This document shows positions 8,494-32,551 of a DNA stretch of 35,830 nucleotides, piece by piece. Position numbers and translations under genes: made by a program. Position 1 is the first letter of the stretch, and each line of letters starts with the position of its first letter. The stretch is from Limnothrix sp. CACIAM 69d (GTDB taxonomy: Bacteria; Cyanobacteriota; Cyanobacteriia; CACIAM-69d). The stretch is taken from contig MKGP02000035.1 in NCBI GenBank assembly GCA_001913845.2, positions 1-35,830 on the forward strand. Direction: 5' to 3'. The notes beneath the pieces are model-generated. The model was not told where the DNA came from, ran no database searches, and saw only the letters and a program-made list of their open reading frames with translations.

Positions 8494-10638
8494 TTAATTG
8501 GTGTAATTCCACCGGGCCCGATATCCCCGATTATCCAAATGGGTAAAGGAGGAGCCATAGCCCAAACCACCGGGCCACCAAGGATCCAAAATCCGTTGGG
8601 CCGCACGCGGCGACAACCCCGCCACCACAAAGTCCACCCCATAACCCCGAATGTGGGTTGAGTTGCGGGCCCCACCCACGGCCCGATTCACGGCCGGGGG
8701 CCGATACCAGCTCGTGATGGTGATGGTGCGATTGCCCAGCCGGGCCCGCACTTCCTGCATTCGCCGGGCCATGGCAATGATGTTTTGGGTGATGGTGGAA
8801 TTTTCGGGAATCCGCGTGCCATCTTTGGTGGCTTCACCCCAACTAAAGTTACCGCCCGCAATAATCGGGTCACGAGTCCAGACCGTGCCCAGCCCGGGCA
8901 CTTGAATCCGCCGTCCCCGATCGGGCACAGGGGCCGGGGCAGGAACCGGGGTGGGTCTGGGGACGGGCGCGGGGGCAGGCACCGGTACAGGAACAGGCGC
9001 AGGCGCAGGCTGAGGATCCCGAGGGGAGGGATAGTCATCCACATTCAGCAAGGTGATGTGGCCTTCAAAAATGAACCATTCCAACCGGTTATTAATGGGT
9101 TTCACCAGCCGAATTCGCAGGTGATCGCCCACGTCCTCGTAGCTGCGAATTTGGAACTCTCCGGGGGAAAGGGCCACCTTTTCCGCATTTCCCAAGCTGC
9201 TGGCCTGTAGGGGACGGGTCTTGAGGAAGGTGCTGGTTTTCACCAACATGGTGGCCGGTTCCAAGAAGTCCGCATGACCCCGGTAAACAAACCATTCCCG
9301 TCGATCGCGGATTGGCTCCACGGTCAGGATTCGATAGTGGGTTCCCTGCTCGATCGAGTCAATCAGCGACAGTTCCCCGGCGGGCATGGCGGCCACTTCG
9401 TTTCGCGGCAGGGCGCTAGCCTGAACCGGTTGACTTTTGAGGACGGTGTTCTGTTTTAGGATCATCACCTGCCATTGCATGGTGCGCAGATCCGTTTCCA
9501 GGGAGCCGATCGCGGCCTGCTGGGTTTCCAAACCGCGCCACAGTTGCACCAACCGAGTCAAAGCGCCCTGTTGATTGGGTGTGGCTCGATAGGCGGCTGG
9601 CAACCGCCGCAGAAAAGAGAGCAATTCCCGATCGAGCTGGGCGGCGGCGGTGCTGGCTTCGGGGGCCGCCGGATTCGCGAACACAATCGGATTCACCCCC
9701 AAGCTGGTGAGGGCCGCGTTGCGATTGTCCAAATCTCGCCACATGCGGACGGTTTCGGTGGCCGCATTGCGCTGAGTGCCGCTGCCCACATAGAACTCCG
9801 GAACCCGCAGCACAAAGGCCAGCAAGGCCGGATCGTAATTACGGGGCAACAGGCTTAAGTTGCTGTCGCTGAGTGAGGCGATCGCCGATTGGCGTGAATC
9901 CAGTTGCCGCCAAATTTGCACCAACCGCAACAGGGCCTCTCGCTGGTGCGGAAAGCCGGAATAGTTGGGCGACAAACGCTGGATAAAGGTGACCAAGGCC
10001 GTGTCCAGGGCCGCATCGGTGTAGTTCAAGGCTGGCAACCCCAGGGAAACCAAGGTGTCCTCCCGGGTGGCCAGGCCGCGCCAAATACGGGTCGCCTCAA
10101 GCAGGGCTTCCCGTTGATGCACGTAGCCTTGATAAAACTGAGGCAGGCGCTCGATCGTGTCGAGCAGGGCCCGATCGATGGTGAAGGTGCTGCCGGTGAG
10201 AGCGGTGTTGGCGGGAGCAATTTGGGTTGCTCGCTCCAAGGTGCAAAATTGGCGATAGGCGGCCGTCAGCTGATCGAGCGAGCAACCAGCCAGAATTGGC
10301 CCGCCAGTGGTTTTGTCTTCAAAGCCCCGCGCCAACACGGCCAACACTTCAGGGCTATATTGTCCAGCACTCACCTGCCAGATTCGATCGGCCTTCCAAC
10401 CGGATTGGATCAAAGAATCCGTTAACCGTCGCACCAACAGGGCCGCTTCCATCAATTGATCCGGTAGGCTGTCCACCTGTTCTTGATCCGCGCTGGTTAA
10501 GCCCAACCCCCTTTCCCCTTCTGGGGTTGGCTGATCATGGGCTTCCTGGAGTGCGGGCAAAATAGGCATATGAATTCCCGCTCGCTGGGCAGCCAGGTGA
10601 AACAGATGCGCGTCCCGATCAAGTGCGGTGGTAGCCAT
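8494..10638 (-). CDS. Large repeat protein with C-terminal M15-type peptidase domain
   Basis: This is a 714-residue modular protein. It has no signal peptide or membrane helix that I can see. The N-terminal 130 residues contain AGIHMPILPAL and LTDSLIQSGWKADRIW, a type I have seen ahead of cyanobacterial M15 domains. Four copies follow of a repeat of about 75-80 residues, each ending in a block like LPQFYQGYVHQREALL / RIWRGLATREDTLVSLG. Two SH3-like repeats come next (LKSQPVQASALPRNE... and LKTRPLQASSLGNAE..., each closing with REWFVYRGH or LEWFIFEGH). A linker of about 40 residues made almost only of Pro-Ala-Val then leads to an M15 domain of about 130 residues. Its likely zinc ligands and catalytic residues are His662 (NSTHIRGYG), Asp669 (GVDF) and His700 (FTHLD). 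Action on peptidoglycan peptide cross-links is the family expectation; how it would be exported is not visible. Confidence 0.88.
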   Translation of the reverse strand: MATTALDRDAHLFHLAAQRAGIHMPILPALQEAHDQPTPEGERGLGLTSADQEQVDSLPDQLMEAALLVRRLTDSLIQSGWKADRIWQVSAGQYSPEVLAVLARGFEDKTTGGPILAGCSLDQLTAAYRQFCTLERATQIAPANTALTGSTFTIDRALLDTIERLPQFYQGYVHQREALLEATRIWRGLATREDTLVSLGLPALNYTDAALDTALVTFIQRLSPNYSGFPHQREALLRLVQIWRQLDSRQSAIASLSDSNLSLLPRNYDPALLAFVLRVPEFYVGSGTQRNAATETVRMWRDLDNRNAALTSLGVNPIVFANPAAPEASTAAAQLDRELLSFLRRLPAAYRATPNQQGALTRLVQLWRGLETQQAAIGSLETDLRTMQWQVMILKQNTVLKSQPVQASALPRNEVAAMPAGELSLIDSIEQGTHYRILTVEPIRDRREWFVYRGHADFLEPATMLVKTSTFLKTRPLQASSLGNAEKVALSPGEFQIRSYEDVGDHLRIRLVKPINNRLEWFIFEGHITLLNVDDYPSPRDPQPAPAPVPVPVPAPAPVPRPTPVPAPAPVPDRGRRIQVPGLGTVWTRDPIIAGGNFSWGEATKDGTRIPENSTITQNIIAMARRMQEVRARLGNRTITITSWYRPPAVNRAVGGARNSTHIRGYGVDFVVAGLSPRAAQRILDPWWPGGLGYGSSFTHLDNRGYRARWNYTN

Positions 10639-14942: not shown

Positions 14943-16868
14943 GTGATGCAGCGTTGGAAGTGGGTTTGGCTGGGTGGAGCGTTGCTGGCAGGGCTAGGGA
15001 TCATGGATTTCGGGTCTCAATCCTTGGCGAATCAATCGCTGTTTCAATACACCATGCAGGCTTGGGCATCACTGCCATTCAACGGGGGAACTGGGGGTGG
15101 TAATGAACCCATTCCTCGAATTTTGGTGGATCAGTTTGGCTATCGACCTCAAGATCCCAAAGTGGCGGTAATTGCCTCTCCGCAGCGGGGTGAAAATGCC
15201 AACCGAGCCTTCACGCCGGGGTCAGTCTATGAAGTCCGAAATACCTCCACCAATGCGGTGGTTTTTTCGGGTGCGCTGACCCCTTGGAATGGGGGGCAAA
15301 TCCACGGTCAATCGGGCGATCGGGCTTGGCATTTTGATTTTTCAACCGTGAAACAATCGGGAACCTATGTGGTGGTTGATCGGGAACGGGGTGAGCAATC
15401 ATTTCCCTTTGAAATTCAGAGCAGTGTCTACCAAAAGAAACTAGTAACTGCCACGCGTGTGTTTTATTACCAACGGGCCGGTTTCAACAAAACGGGTTCT
15501 GTGGCTGGGAAGTGGCAAGACGGGGCGGCTTTTTTGGGCCCCAATCAGGACTCCCAGGCTCGATCGGTCAGTGCCAAGGATGATCCCGCCACGGCCCGCG
15601 ACCTGCGAGGGGGATGGTTTGATGCTGGTGATACGAACAAATACAGCACCTTTGCGGGCCCCGTGGTCAATCAACTGCTGACGGCCTACGAAGAAAACCC
15701 CCGAGCTTTCACCGATCGATTCAACATTCCCGAGTCGGGCAACGGCATCCCCGACCTGATTGATGAGATTAAGTGGGAGGTGGATTGGCTGAAGCGAATG
15801 CAGGAAGACGATGGTGGCGTGTTGATCAAGGTGGGCGTACTGGATCACAATGCGGCCGATCGCCCCAGCCAAGATCGTCGCCCCCGATATTACGGGCCCA
15901 AATGCTCTTCCTCCACGATCGCCACGGCGGCCGCCTTTGCCCATGCGGCCCGCGTCTATCGGCAGTTTCCTGCCCTGCAAGGGGAGTCCCGAGATTTGGA
16001 ACAGCGGGCCATTCGGGCTTGGAACTGGTTCCAGCAAAATCCCCTCAAGACCGATTGCGACACCCAGGAAATTAAAGCCGGGGATGCCGATCGCCCGATT
16101 CCTGAACAACAGGGCAACGCGGCCGCCGCCGCTGTTCACCTGTTTGCCCTCACCGGCAACCCCGACTACAGCACCCAGCTTGCAAAATATCTCACCGCTT
16201 CCCAGCCTTGGAACGACAACGTTTGGAGTCGGTATCGGGCCCACGAAGGCGATGCGCTGCTGCTCTATACCCGCTTGCCCAACGCCGATGCCGCCTTGGT
16301 TAAGCAAATCCGCGATCGATTCGTGAATATGGTGCGCACCCAAACCCAGGCCTACGGCTTGCGCATGGATCTAGATCCCTATCGGGTGTCGCTGCCCGAT
16401 GAGCAATATCACTGGGGCAGCAACCAAGTTCAGGCCAACTATGGCAACAGCAATCGAGACGCAATTCGCTATGGCGCAGTGCCCGATCGCAACACCAGCC
16501 TGCAAGCCCGGGCCATGGCCCACCTGCACTACCTCCATGGCGTGAATCCCTTGGGATTTGTTTACCTCACCAACATGGGCAGCCTGGGAGCCGAGCGATC
16601 GGTCACCAGCATGTATCACGAATGGTTGGGGCGTGGCGAGTATGAACGGGTTGCCCCCGGAAAACCGGGCCCGGCTCCCGGATATTTGGTGGGCGGGCCC
16701 AACCGCGACTACACCGGCAACCAAGAATCCGTGAAACAACAGCCGATCCAAAAGCGCTATCTCGACTCCCCCACCGGCTGGCCGGTGAATAGTTGGGAAC
16801 TCACGGAACCAGCCATTTACTATCAAGCGGCCTACGTTCGTTTGCTGGCCAGTATTACCAGTCCGTAA
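14943..16868 (+). CDS. Secreted glycoside hydrolase family 9 (endoglucanase-like)
   Basis: The 641-residue protein opens with a probable signal peptide or lipid-free anchor (WVWLGGALLAGLGIM, residues 8-21). An N-terminal Ig-like CelD_N domain follows (IPRILVDQFGYRPQDPKVAV, about 57-162), then a GH9 (alpha/alpha)6 barrel. The catalytic pair lies in GGWFDAGDTNKY (Asp227 and Asp230), and the likely proton donor is Glu622 in ELTEPAIYYQAAY near the C-terminus. HYLHGVNPLGFVYLTNMG is the usual late GH9 motif. GH9 enzymes cleave beta-1,4-glucans such as cellulose. The target here could equally be an endogenous exopolysaccharide, suggested by the flippase gene 83 bases downstream on the same strand. 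The start is GTG 14943, 8 bases after AAGGAG; ATG 14946 directly follows it and is nearly as good. No carbohydrate-binding or dockerin module is present. Confidence 0.92.
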   Translation: MMQRWKWVWLGGALLAGLGIMDFGSQSLANQSLFQYTMQAWASLPFNGGTGGGNEPIPRILVDQFGYRPQDPKVAVIASPQRGENANRAFTPGSVYEVRNTSTNAVVFSGALTPWNGGQIHGQSGDRAWHFDFSTVKQSGTYVVVDRERGEQSFPFEIQSSVYQKKLVTATRVFYYQRAGFNKTGSVAGKWQDGAAFLGPNQDSQARSVSAKDDPATARDLRGGWFDAGDTNKYSTFAGPVVNQLLTAYEENPRAFTDRFNIPESGNGIPDLIDEIKWEVDWLKRMQEDDGGVLIKVGVLDHNAADRPSQDRRPRYYGPKCSSSTIATAAAFAHAARVYRQFPALQGESRDLEQRAIRAWNWFQQNPLKTDCDTQEIKAGDADRPIPEQQGNAAAAAVHLFALTGNPDYSTQLAKYLTASQPWNDNVWSRYRAHEGDALLLYTRLPNADAALVKQIRDRFVNMVRTQTQAYGLRMDLDPYRVSLPDEQYHWGSNQVQANYGNSNRDAIRYGAVPDRNTSLQARAMAHLHYLHGVNPLGFVYLTNMGSLGAERSVTSMYHEWLGRGEYERVAPGKPGPAPGYLVGGPNRDYTGNQESVKQQPIQKRYLDSPTGWPVNSWELTEPAIYYQAAYVRLLASITSP

Positions 16869-16951
16869 TCTTTTCCAGAGGTTTTGTGTAGCGACGGTGT
16901 TAGTTTGGGTGCAATTTTCCACGCCTGTTCACTCTTCACTCACTAGCTCCT

Positions 16952-18244
16952 ATGCCCAACCTTCAAGGAGTCCTGCAACGTCTGCGCACCACTCTGGGGA
17001 AATCCTCGGTGCAAGACAATCTCTGGATGATTGCCGCCAGGGTGATTAGCGTGGCAATCCAGGCGCTGTACTTCATCTTTGTGGCGCGGTTTTTGGGATC
17101 CAAAGAGTATGGCGAACTGATCGGGGTGTTGTCCTTGGTGGCGATGCTTTCGCCGTTCATTGGGGTTGGCTATGCCCATTTGTTGATGCGGACGGTTTCG
17201 CGCGATCGCAGCAGCTTCCGCACCGAGTGGGGTAAGTCCCTATTCGTTTGGGGCTGGTCTTCCCTGCTGGGCATTGGGTTGGTGATGTTGCTGGCGAGTC
17301 GAATTTGGGGCAGCCAAGTTTCCCCCTGGTTGGTGTTGTGGATGGCCCTGGGGGACTATTGGGGCGTTTGTCTGCTGGAATTTAGCAGCTCAGCGTTTTT
17401 ATCGGTGGGGGTGGCAGCTCGCCCAGCCCAGCTCAAGGTGCTTTTCAGCGCCGTGAAGTTTTTGGCGGTGGGGGCCCTGTGGCTGGTTCCCGAATGGCGA
17501 TCGGCAGAAACCTGGTCGATTTTTTACTGCATTGCGTCAGTGCTGCCGGCCCTTGCGGCCTTTGTGTTGGCCAGTCGGCAGGCGGGCTGGCCCCTTTGGC
17601 CCAAACGGAACTGTAATTGGGAGTTGGGTCAAGGGTTTTACTTCTCCATTGCCGGTTCCGCTGAAACCATTAATGCCAATGCCGATAAAACCTTGCTCTC
17701 TAGCTTGGTGAATGAAGAGGCTGCCGGGATCTATGGGGCGGGCTATCGGTTTGTGGATGTGGGCTATCAACCAATCTTGGCGATTGGTGCGGCAAACTAT
17801 GCCCGCTTTTTCCAGGCGGGCACTAATGGCATTGACGGCAGTATCCAATTTGCCAAGCGCCTGTTTCCGCTGATCGCGGGCTACGGGGTGCTGGGGGGAT
17901 TGGGGATGTTTTTCTTTGCTCCGGTGGTGGAGTGGATTTTGGGATCGGAATATCGCGAGGCGATCGGGGTGTTGCGTTGGTTCGCCCCCGTGCATTTGAT
18001 TTTGGGAATGCAGTATTTGGCGGCCGATTGCCTCACCTCTGCGGGCCACCAGGGGCAACGGAGCTTAATTCAAGTCACCGCTGCCATTTTGAATGTGGTG
18101 CTGAACCTAATCTTGATCCCGTCCTATTCCTGGGCGGGGGCCATTTGGGCGACGCTGGCTTCGGAAACGTTCAAGATGGTGGGACTGTGGGGAGCGGCGG
18201 CCTTTTTCTGGCGGCGCGAGTTGGCCATGAAGGCCAAGGGTTAA
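16952..18244 (+). CDS. Polysaccharide flippase (Wzx/RfbX-type, MOP superfamily)
   Basis: The 430-residue integral membrane protein has about 12 hydrophobic helices. It opens in the way typical of oligosaccharide flippases: DNLWMIAARVISVAIQALYF, then FVARFLGSKEYGELIGVLS. A central NADKTLLSSL with AAGIYGAGYRF and a late YLAADCLTSAGHQGQRSLIQ match the same family. Such proteins move undecaprenyl-linked glycan units across the cytoplasmic membrane. It follows the GH9 gene on the same strand after 83 bases with no terminator in between, so the two may be co-transcribed. No glycosyltransferase or Wzy gene is adjacent, so the glycan is unknown. ATG 16952 is the most likely start; no strong ribosome binding site is seen. 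Confidence 0.87.
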   Translation: MPNLQGVLQRLRTTLGKSSVQDNLWMIAARVISVAIQALYFIFVARFLGSKEYGELIGVLSLVAMLSPFIGVGYAHLLMRTVSRDRSSFRTEWGKSLFVWGWSSLLGIGLVMLLASRIWGSQVSPWLVLWMALGDYWGVCLLEFSSSAFLSVGVAARPAQLKVLFSAVKFLAVGALWLVPEWRSAETWSIFYCIASVLPALAAFVLASRQAGWPLWPKRNCNWELGQGFYFSIAGSAETINANADKTLLSSLVNEEAAGIYGAGYRFVDVGYQPILAIGAANYARFFQAGTNGIDGSIQFAKRLFPLIAGYGVLGGLGMFFFAPVVEWILGSEYREAIGVLRWFAPVHLILGMQYLAADCLTSAGHQGQRSLIQVTAAILNVVLNLILIPSYSWAGAIWATLASETFKMVGLWGAAAFFWRRELAMKAKG

Positions 18245-31858: not shown

Positions 31859-32551
31859 ATGGCTCGGACAGATATTGACTATCTCGATCTCACCAACAAC
31901 AGCGAAACCATCTCCCTCGCAGCCGGCCAGCAAGGCCGCCTGGGTGTGCGGGCCCTCGCCGGCAACGATTACATCAACGGTTCCAGCGACAACGACACCC
32001 TCTATGGCAACAGCGACAACGACACCCTGATCGGCAACGAAGGTAGCGATGTGCTCTTTGGGGGCCAGGGTTTTGATTTTGTGATTGGTCGCGATGGGGA
32101 TGACCTGCTGACGGGCAACCTGGGCAACGACCAGCTAGAAGGCGGCGCGGGGCGCGACACCCTCCGTGGCGGCCGCGACAACGATATTCTCTACGGCCAG
32201 GAGGGAGATGATTTTCTGGCCGGCGACCTGGGCATCGACACCCTGATCGGCGGCACTGGGCGCGATACCTTTGTTCTGGCGGTTGATGATGCCACCACGA
32301 CCATTGCGAACGCCGATGTAATTGTGGATTTTGACTTCAACGGTGGAGATTTCATCGCCATCAGTCGTCAGGTAGACCTATTTTTTGATAATTCCCTCGA
32401 CTATTCGCGGATTGTGGGTTTTGGCAGTCCCGATGTGAAGGATGTGTTGATTCGTGTGGGCGGAGCTGTGGGCCCAATCATCGGAGTGGTGGTGGATGCG
32501 ACCGATCGCCAAGTCGCCCAAGCTTTTGCCGAAGGGCCACGGGTGGCGTAG
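31859..32551 (+). CDS. RTX (hemolysin-type) calcium-binding repeat protein
   Basis: The 230-residue protein contains about eight tandem nonapeptide units of the GGxGxDxLx type between residues about 38 and 140: [72 protein letters not shown]. Such repeats form a Ca2+-binding parallel beta-roll once secreted by a type I pathway. The C-terminal 80 residues ([18 protein letters not shown]...) resemble the usual peptidase-M10-serralysin-like end that carries the export signal. No enzymatic domain is present. No type I transporter genes are nearby. Start ATG 31859. Confidence 0.9.

Follow-up and report, generated by a model that had tools for sequence, protein, structure and literature searches.

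The gene at positions 8494–10638 (minus strand, stop codon included) of a 35,830-nucleotide stretch from Limnothrix sp. CACIAM 69d, hereafter the window, encodes a leaderless, multi-domain protein of 714 residues. Reading from an ATG start, a predicted lysozyme-like domain and four divergent helical repeats precede a C-terminal M15 peptidase domain. We judge the chances to be evenly balanced that the ligands of the N-terminal half are peptidoglycan or muropeptides, that the M15 domain trims stem peptides, and that binding is the more strictly kept of these activities. Briefly, we infer that the repeats bind peptidoglycan and that the peptidase is active. The protein would then be a leaderless, peptidoglycan-directed cyanobacterial protein. 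The lysozyme-fold domain, which lacks its glutamate, and four diverged PG_binding_1-type repeats would form a rigid binding module. This module would hold peptidoglycan or muropeptides, and the C-terminal zinc peptidase would trim stem peptides of the bound substrate. The protein would reach the wall independently of Sec, through cell lysis or an uncharacterised exporter, or would act on muropeptides in the cytosol instead.

If this is correct, a wall-binding module that is among the most common gains a far-diverged branch. The protein would also illustrate clearly how a wall enzyme can turn into a wall binder, with the lysozyme-like domain Glu-less everywhere and the peptidase dead several times. 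It would further raise the question of by what means a wall-directed protein with no leader comes to reach or sense the cyanobacterial cell wall. In kind this is a modular wall protein; its novelty lies in how the parts are combined, in the divergent array of four units and in an enzyme that has no leader and is decaying. None of the titles and abstract openings retrieved in literature searches described it.

Domain organisation

An earlier, sequence-only reading of the window had proposed a modular layout: an N-terminal region, four repeats, a doublet, a linker and an M15 domain. All are present in the 714-residue open reading frame, and all coordinates below for its parts are on the minus strand. 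Two points are added here. The N-terminal region is a predicted lysozyme/transglycosylase-like domain, and the SH3-like doublet is missing in orthologues outside the window's family. The proposed Pro-Ala-Val linker was found as a stretch rich in these residues at about aa 539–575 (8914–9024).

Four repeats retained as a set

The repeats start near aa 146, 203, 260 and 327. In self-alignments and the model, the units span aa 150–203 (10030–10191), 207–260 (9859–10020), 264–317 (9688–9849) and 331–384 (9487–9648). Each is modelled as three helices (151–168, 173–187 and 192–198 in the first). All six pairwise BLOSUM62 scores were between 88 and 118, whereas 1000 shuffles of each pair never exceeded 48; the fourfold repetition previously suggested is therefore real. 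The suggested repeat length of about 75–80 residues was wrong. The HQREALL block recurs at aa 174, 231, 288 and 355, a spacing of 57, 57 and 67. We built a unit profile (A6) from 15 of 33 N-regions, giving 60 units. One Asp and one Trp are invariant in this consensus, while Leu, Tyr, Gln-Arg, Ala, Arg and Leu positions are nearly so.

An Oscillatoriales cyanobacterium MAG is the nearest relative with a name, which together with the phycobilisome linker gene of the window shows the host to be cyanobacterial. Matches to the full protein occur in 40 of 59 related genomes, some through the M15 part alone. Using the repeat profile, repeat-bearing orthologues were identified in 31 of the 59. In the phylum sample, the repeat profile matched 16 of 291 genomes and the N-region profile 16 of 386. 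Exactly four units, all in one protein, were present in 30 of the 31 related genomes and in 16/16 from the phylum sample. The remaining genome, G024, has four units in its orthologue plus three above threshold in a second open reading frame; its copy on contig C27 was counted but is in no alignment. The N-region sets comprised 33 (A3) and 36 (A4) rows and the M15 tree 54 rows. Three records with a frameshifted or truncated N-terminus (L029, L031 and L033) were excluded from N-region sets and from the M15 tree.

We compared the units between genomes by position. The nearest neighbour from another genome was the same repeat position for 132 of 132 units (33 rows; 33/33 at each position). Hence, the four units predate the split of these lineages and have been retained as a set. 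The gene is lineage-conserved and chromosomal, inherited as a single copy and surrounded by housekeeping genes.

A bridge between the repeats and PG_binding_1

The repeat unit had been left unnamed, as possibly a new wall-binding or structural module. Part of this stands, since the unit corresponds to no curated domain and a PDB profile search with it returned nothing significant (best E 1.1). None of the 60 units matched Pfam PG_binding_1 (PF01471) at E ≤ 10. Alignment of the units to 29 cyanobacterial PG_binding_1 domains with hhalign was not significant (E 0.23). Merging the units with those of the bridge protein described below did not help (E 0.25, not significant); the score was 9.2, whereas a reversed control reached 10.4 and 100 column shuffles went as high as 12.9.

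The second repeat-containing protein of G024 provides an intermediate. This protein, L137, has 543 residues and is encoded at L137:689-2317 on the minus strand (G024:C24). The repeat profile recognises five of its units, with a total E of 2.2e-35. The protein also matches PG_binding_1 in Pfam (E 2.2e-6); the score is 28.5 bits, and no shuffle out of 2000 gave more than 8.4. Three PG_binding_1 matches are in register with repeat units, at offsets of 8, 8 and 10. Profile–profile comparison joined the repeats to the bridge (E 5.6e-13) and the bridge to PG_binding_1 (E 3.7e-5). An N-acetylmuramidase domain (PF11860) follows the units of L137. Three other muramidase proteins that we fetched (L157–L159) carry ordinary PG_binding_1 matches N-terminal to the muramidase.

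The repeats are thus probably homologous to PG_binding_1 by way of L137, yet fail the family's own profile, so we do not file them as members. The bridge favours a wall-binding unit and disfavours a wholly new one. Like PG_binding_1, the unit has three helices and about 57 residues; unlike it, all four units here lack the DGxxGxxT loop and find no direct profile match. From these comparisons, the repeats probably descend from PG_binding_1, are far diverged and have lost the loop. A search with the repeats alone, as had been recommended, uncovered another architecture once, namely the muramidase-linked protein of G024. The module is therefore not promiscuous.

Other identities were considered for the repeats. 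TPR_TmcB and P_C10 each matched 20 of 27 N-regions at E ≤ 1, with best values of 7.7e-7 and 9.5e-5, respectively. Both were set aside, as single units matched in only 6/60 and 11/60 cases, with best E values of 0.022 and 0.0016. Foldseek found no match below E 0.3 in the PDB or among viral models. For the repeat region, no VIA-align row exceeded Z 3.5, a result that excludes no fold.

A predicted lysozyme-like domain lacking the expected catalytic glutamate

Models and structure alignment suggest a lysozyme/lytic-transglycosylase-like domain at aa 1–140 (10219–10638). A model of aa 1–390, made from 33 sequences, had a mean pLDDT of 86.5. Using VIA-align, aa 4–141 of this model matched MltC at Z 7.5 and FlgJ at Z 6.1, together with two NlpC/P60-linked proteins, a C. 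difficile hydrolase (6.7) and an S. aureus lipoprotein (6.2). The row that came after these, at Z 3.5, was unrelated and lay in another part of the model. In a full-length model, the same domain matched MltF (Z 8.5), MltC (8.0) and goose-type lysozyme (7.5). The two models were run separately from overlapping input alignments, and Z scores of 6–8.5 fall in the range that VIA-align calls middling; the likeness is one of predicted fold. On this basis, the domain falls in the lysozyme-like/lytic transglycosylase superfamily, at Z 6.1–8.5 to several members across the two predicted models.

The catalytic glutamate of this superfamily, at the end of the second helix, is missing at the position where it would be expected. 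We take this residue to be 316 in MltF, 217 in MltC and 73 in g-type lysozyme. Counting ungapped from the first aligned residues, all three align to residue 34, which is His in the window protein. Across 33 rows, position 34 is His in 21, Gln in 10, Ser in two and Glu in none, where the column was placed by alignment ranges and these residue numbers. We also sought sequence-level support. Aligned by hhalign, the domain showed no link to 16 cyanobacterial SLT domains (PF01464; probability 0.05%) or to four N-acetylmuramidase domains. Lacking an SLT link, it is best described as a predicted, probably inactive, lysozyme-like fold. Hence, aa 3–141 resemble MltF, MltC and goose-type lysozyme in predicted fold (Z 7.5–8.5), but differ in having no SLT sequence match and His, Gln or Ser in place of the expected glutamate.

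Exchange of the C-terminal tail and decay of the peptidase

Repeat 4 is followed by a doublet of units of about 72 residues, putatively SH3-like (aa 391–534; 9037–9468). The sequence-only reading had called these two SH3-like repeats. The duplication holds, since a gapless alignment (score 144) covers both 70-residue units over their full length. Their SH3 identity was not confirmed; no Pfam SH3 family matched in 15/15 units, a PDB profile match was not found either, and the region was mostly modelled at pLDDT 25–40. The doublet lies between repeat 4 and the linker in 6/6 rows of the window's family and in 0/30 orthologue rows outside it, where repeat 4 leads through the linker directly to M15. 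A stretch resembling it (match to aa 391–535) occurs in genome G011 (contig C12; L200), just N-terminal to an N-acetylmuramidase match. Hence, the doublet seems to travel among wall enzymes.

The M15 domain proposed earlier is secure. PF08291 matches aa 591–714 (8497–8868) with an E value of 1.9e-15 and 57.4 bits, against a Pfam cut-off of 23.2, and the zinc ligands H662, D669 and H700 are intact. The best structural match was the Streptomyces DD-peptidase 1lbu (Z 13.2, rmsd 2.5, 118 aligned). This zinc DD-carboxypeptidase of Streptomyces albus G is secreted and has one canonical N-terminal peptidoglycan-binding domain followed by M15. The two proteins share the M15 fold, an aligned zinc-site motif and a binding module N-terminal to the peptidase. 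The window protein differs from 1lbu in its lack of a leader and in having four far-diverged repeats preceded by a lysozyme-like domain.

In the 54-row M15 tree, the M15 domains of all six window-family proteins group with those of SH3-M15 paralogues from the same family (14 rows, 100/99). This group falls outside the 27 other repeat-bearing proteins (99/98). Consistent with the tree, the M15 domain of the window has a mean identity of 74% to eight same-family paralogues (71–78%) and of 47% to 27 orthologues elsewhere. The tail of the window's family has therefore been exchanged with that of the SH3-M15 paralogue. The direction is most simply from the paralogue to this gene, because paralogues of other families are nearer to the 14-row group. 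The paralogues (e.g. G000:C48) are leaderless and, in the window's family, have the same tail at 71–78% M15 identity, but they are without the lysozyme-like domain and the four repeats.

Since 32 of 36 rows retain the zinc triad, the peptidase may be important in most lineages. The triad is lost or altered in the other four, which read HLY (L023), YEH (L024), HDY (L032) and QLQ (L034). These rows stand apart in the N-region tree, where starred branches force at least three changes. The M15 tree groups all four (98/91), a placement that long branches may cause. Among 13 SH3-M15 paralogues belonging to other families, one likewise has an altered triad (HNH); hence, decay is not unique to this gene. 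In all four zinc-altered rows, the N-terminal half remained open and aligned. The binding half thus appears essential, because it was kept while the peptidase site decayed repeatedly. With the cutting part decayed and the repeat part retained in these relatives, the protein may be a wall binder more than an enzyme.

No leader and the question of wall contact

The lack of an export signal, first remarked upon as odd for a wall enzyme, is real and conserved: scanning the early residues by hydropathy revealed no leader in 36 of 36 rows. We judged leader absence by hydropathy and by upstream stop codons. Within aa 1–45, the highest 12-residue Kyte-Doolittle mean was 0.98 in the window protein and at most 1.60 over the 36 rows. 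A 19-residue stretch at hydropathy ≥1.6 occurred in none of the 36 proteins, and there is no membrane helix. In 12 of the 36 rows, an in-frame stop lies six codons or fewer upstream of the start. Two of these (L031 and L033) are truncated records without a Met start; for the other ten, the stop makes a hidden upstream leader impossible. The SH3-M15 paralogue of the window's genome is also leaderless and begins directly in its first unit. The missing leader weighs against the favoured reading; release by lysis, handling of muropeptides in the cytosol or an uncharacterised exporter may account for it.

On one account, the protein is an endolysin or autolysin that has been captured. It would be lytically active, stored in the cytoplasm and freed at lysis, for example of the sacrificial cells of a filament, to degrade the walls of its own or neighbouring cells. 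We consider this improbable. Endolysins do lack leaders, as does the SH3-M15 paralogue, and M15 domains are common among them. Matches were obtained to 191 phage records, cyanophage endolysins included, through the M15 part in the rows listed, and PHROG endolysin families match with E values of 6e-23 and 4e-17. However, we found no viral contig with the N-terminal half and, among the phage and plasmid matches listed, only the M15 part matched; a phage origin was rejected on these grounds. Furthermore, the M15 site is degraded in 4/36 rows and the lysozyme-like domain is Glu-less in 33/33, which a lytic enzyme should not tolerate. Single-copy inheritance among housekeeping genes also argues against this account. 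We scanned 20 window genes besides this one, and the 18 with Pfam matches included no phage family.

A cytosolic peptidase of muropeptides or precursors, or a cytosolic sensor, would need no export. The repeats would then serve as an internal scaffold or protein-binding module and not as a wall binder. Cytoplasmic VanX, which acts on D-Ala-D-Ala, would be a parallel for such a peptidase. Agreement comes from the absence of any leader or membrane helix (36/36 by hydropathy), from a neighbouring membrane protein with a predicted cytosolic main domain (12/12 by Lys/Arg counts; see below) and from the individual conservation of repeat positions (132/132), as in a fixed scaffold. Nevertheless, in L137 this repeat occurs alongside PG_binding_1 signatures and a muramidase, and domains with a lysozyme fold are typically found in wall proteins. 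We regard this account, too, as improbable.

Delivery as cargo of a contractile injection system would explain a leaderless protein acting on the wall. The contractile sheath family PF04984 was detected in 19 of the 59 related genomes, but in 0/6 genomes of the window's own family. Among genomes with the gene, 11 of 31 had a sheath match; among those lacking the gene, 8 of 28 did (Fisher p 0.59). With no sheath match in the window's own genome, injection is largely refuted as a general route and is, in our estimation, very improbable.

A frequently linked membrane protein

In 12 of 20 fetched neighbourhoods, the gene directly downstream of the repeat-protein gene on the same strand encodes a protein with one predicted membrane helix, a strongly conserved C-terminal domain and no Pfam match. 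An example of this conserved protein and its relatives, which are without a Pfam family, is L053:9756-10757 (plus strand). By coordinates, 15 of the 30 related genomes having both genes place the membrane-protein gene downstream at a distance of no more than about 1 kb. It is present in 30/31 genomes with the repeats and in 9/28 without them (Fisher p 1e-7, uncorrected for kinship). In the phylum sample, all 16 gene-bearing genomes have it, as do 71 others (87/386). Hence, this is a wider cyanobacterial protein, and its linkage is frequent but not constant. In the window's genome, it is encoded on another contig (G000:C35:49225-49956). More Lys and Arg residues follow the helix than precede it in 12/12 neighbour proteins, which predicts a main domain on the cytosolic side. 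SepT was dropped as a candidate identity. It is described as having two membrane helices and SMC/TerB-C matches (PMC10653889); the neighbour has one helix and no Pfam match.

The adjacency to this membrane protein forms part of a further reading, which we regard as doubtful. Here the protein would be a cyanobacteria-specific, peptidoglycan-binding scaffold, composed of a dead lysozyme fold and a fixed array of four divergent PG_binding_1-type repeats. Its M15 enzyme would be an optional part, liable to decay or exchange, and no known export signal would be involved in reaching or sensing the wall.

Other genes of the window were also noted. A GH9 cellulase with a CelD_N domain is encoded at 14943–16868 (plus strand), followed directly by a polysaccharide flippase-type protein at 16952–18244 (plus strand). 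The pair, at 14943–18244, is a possible exopolysaccharide locus in a cyanobacterium. At 31859–32551 (plus strand), a short protein consists mostly of RTX calcium-binding nonapeptide repeats (PF00353, E 9.2e-30). A phycobilisome linker gene is also present.
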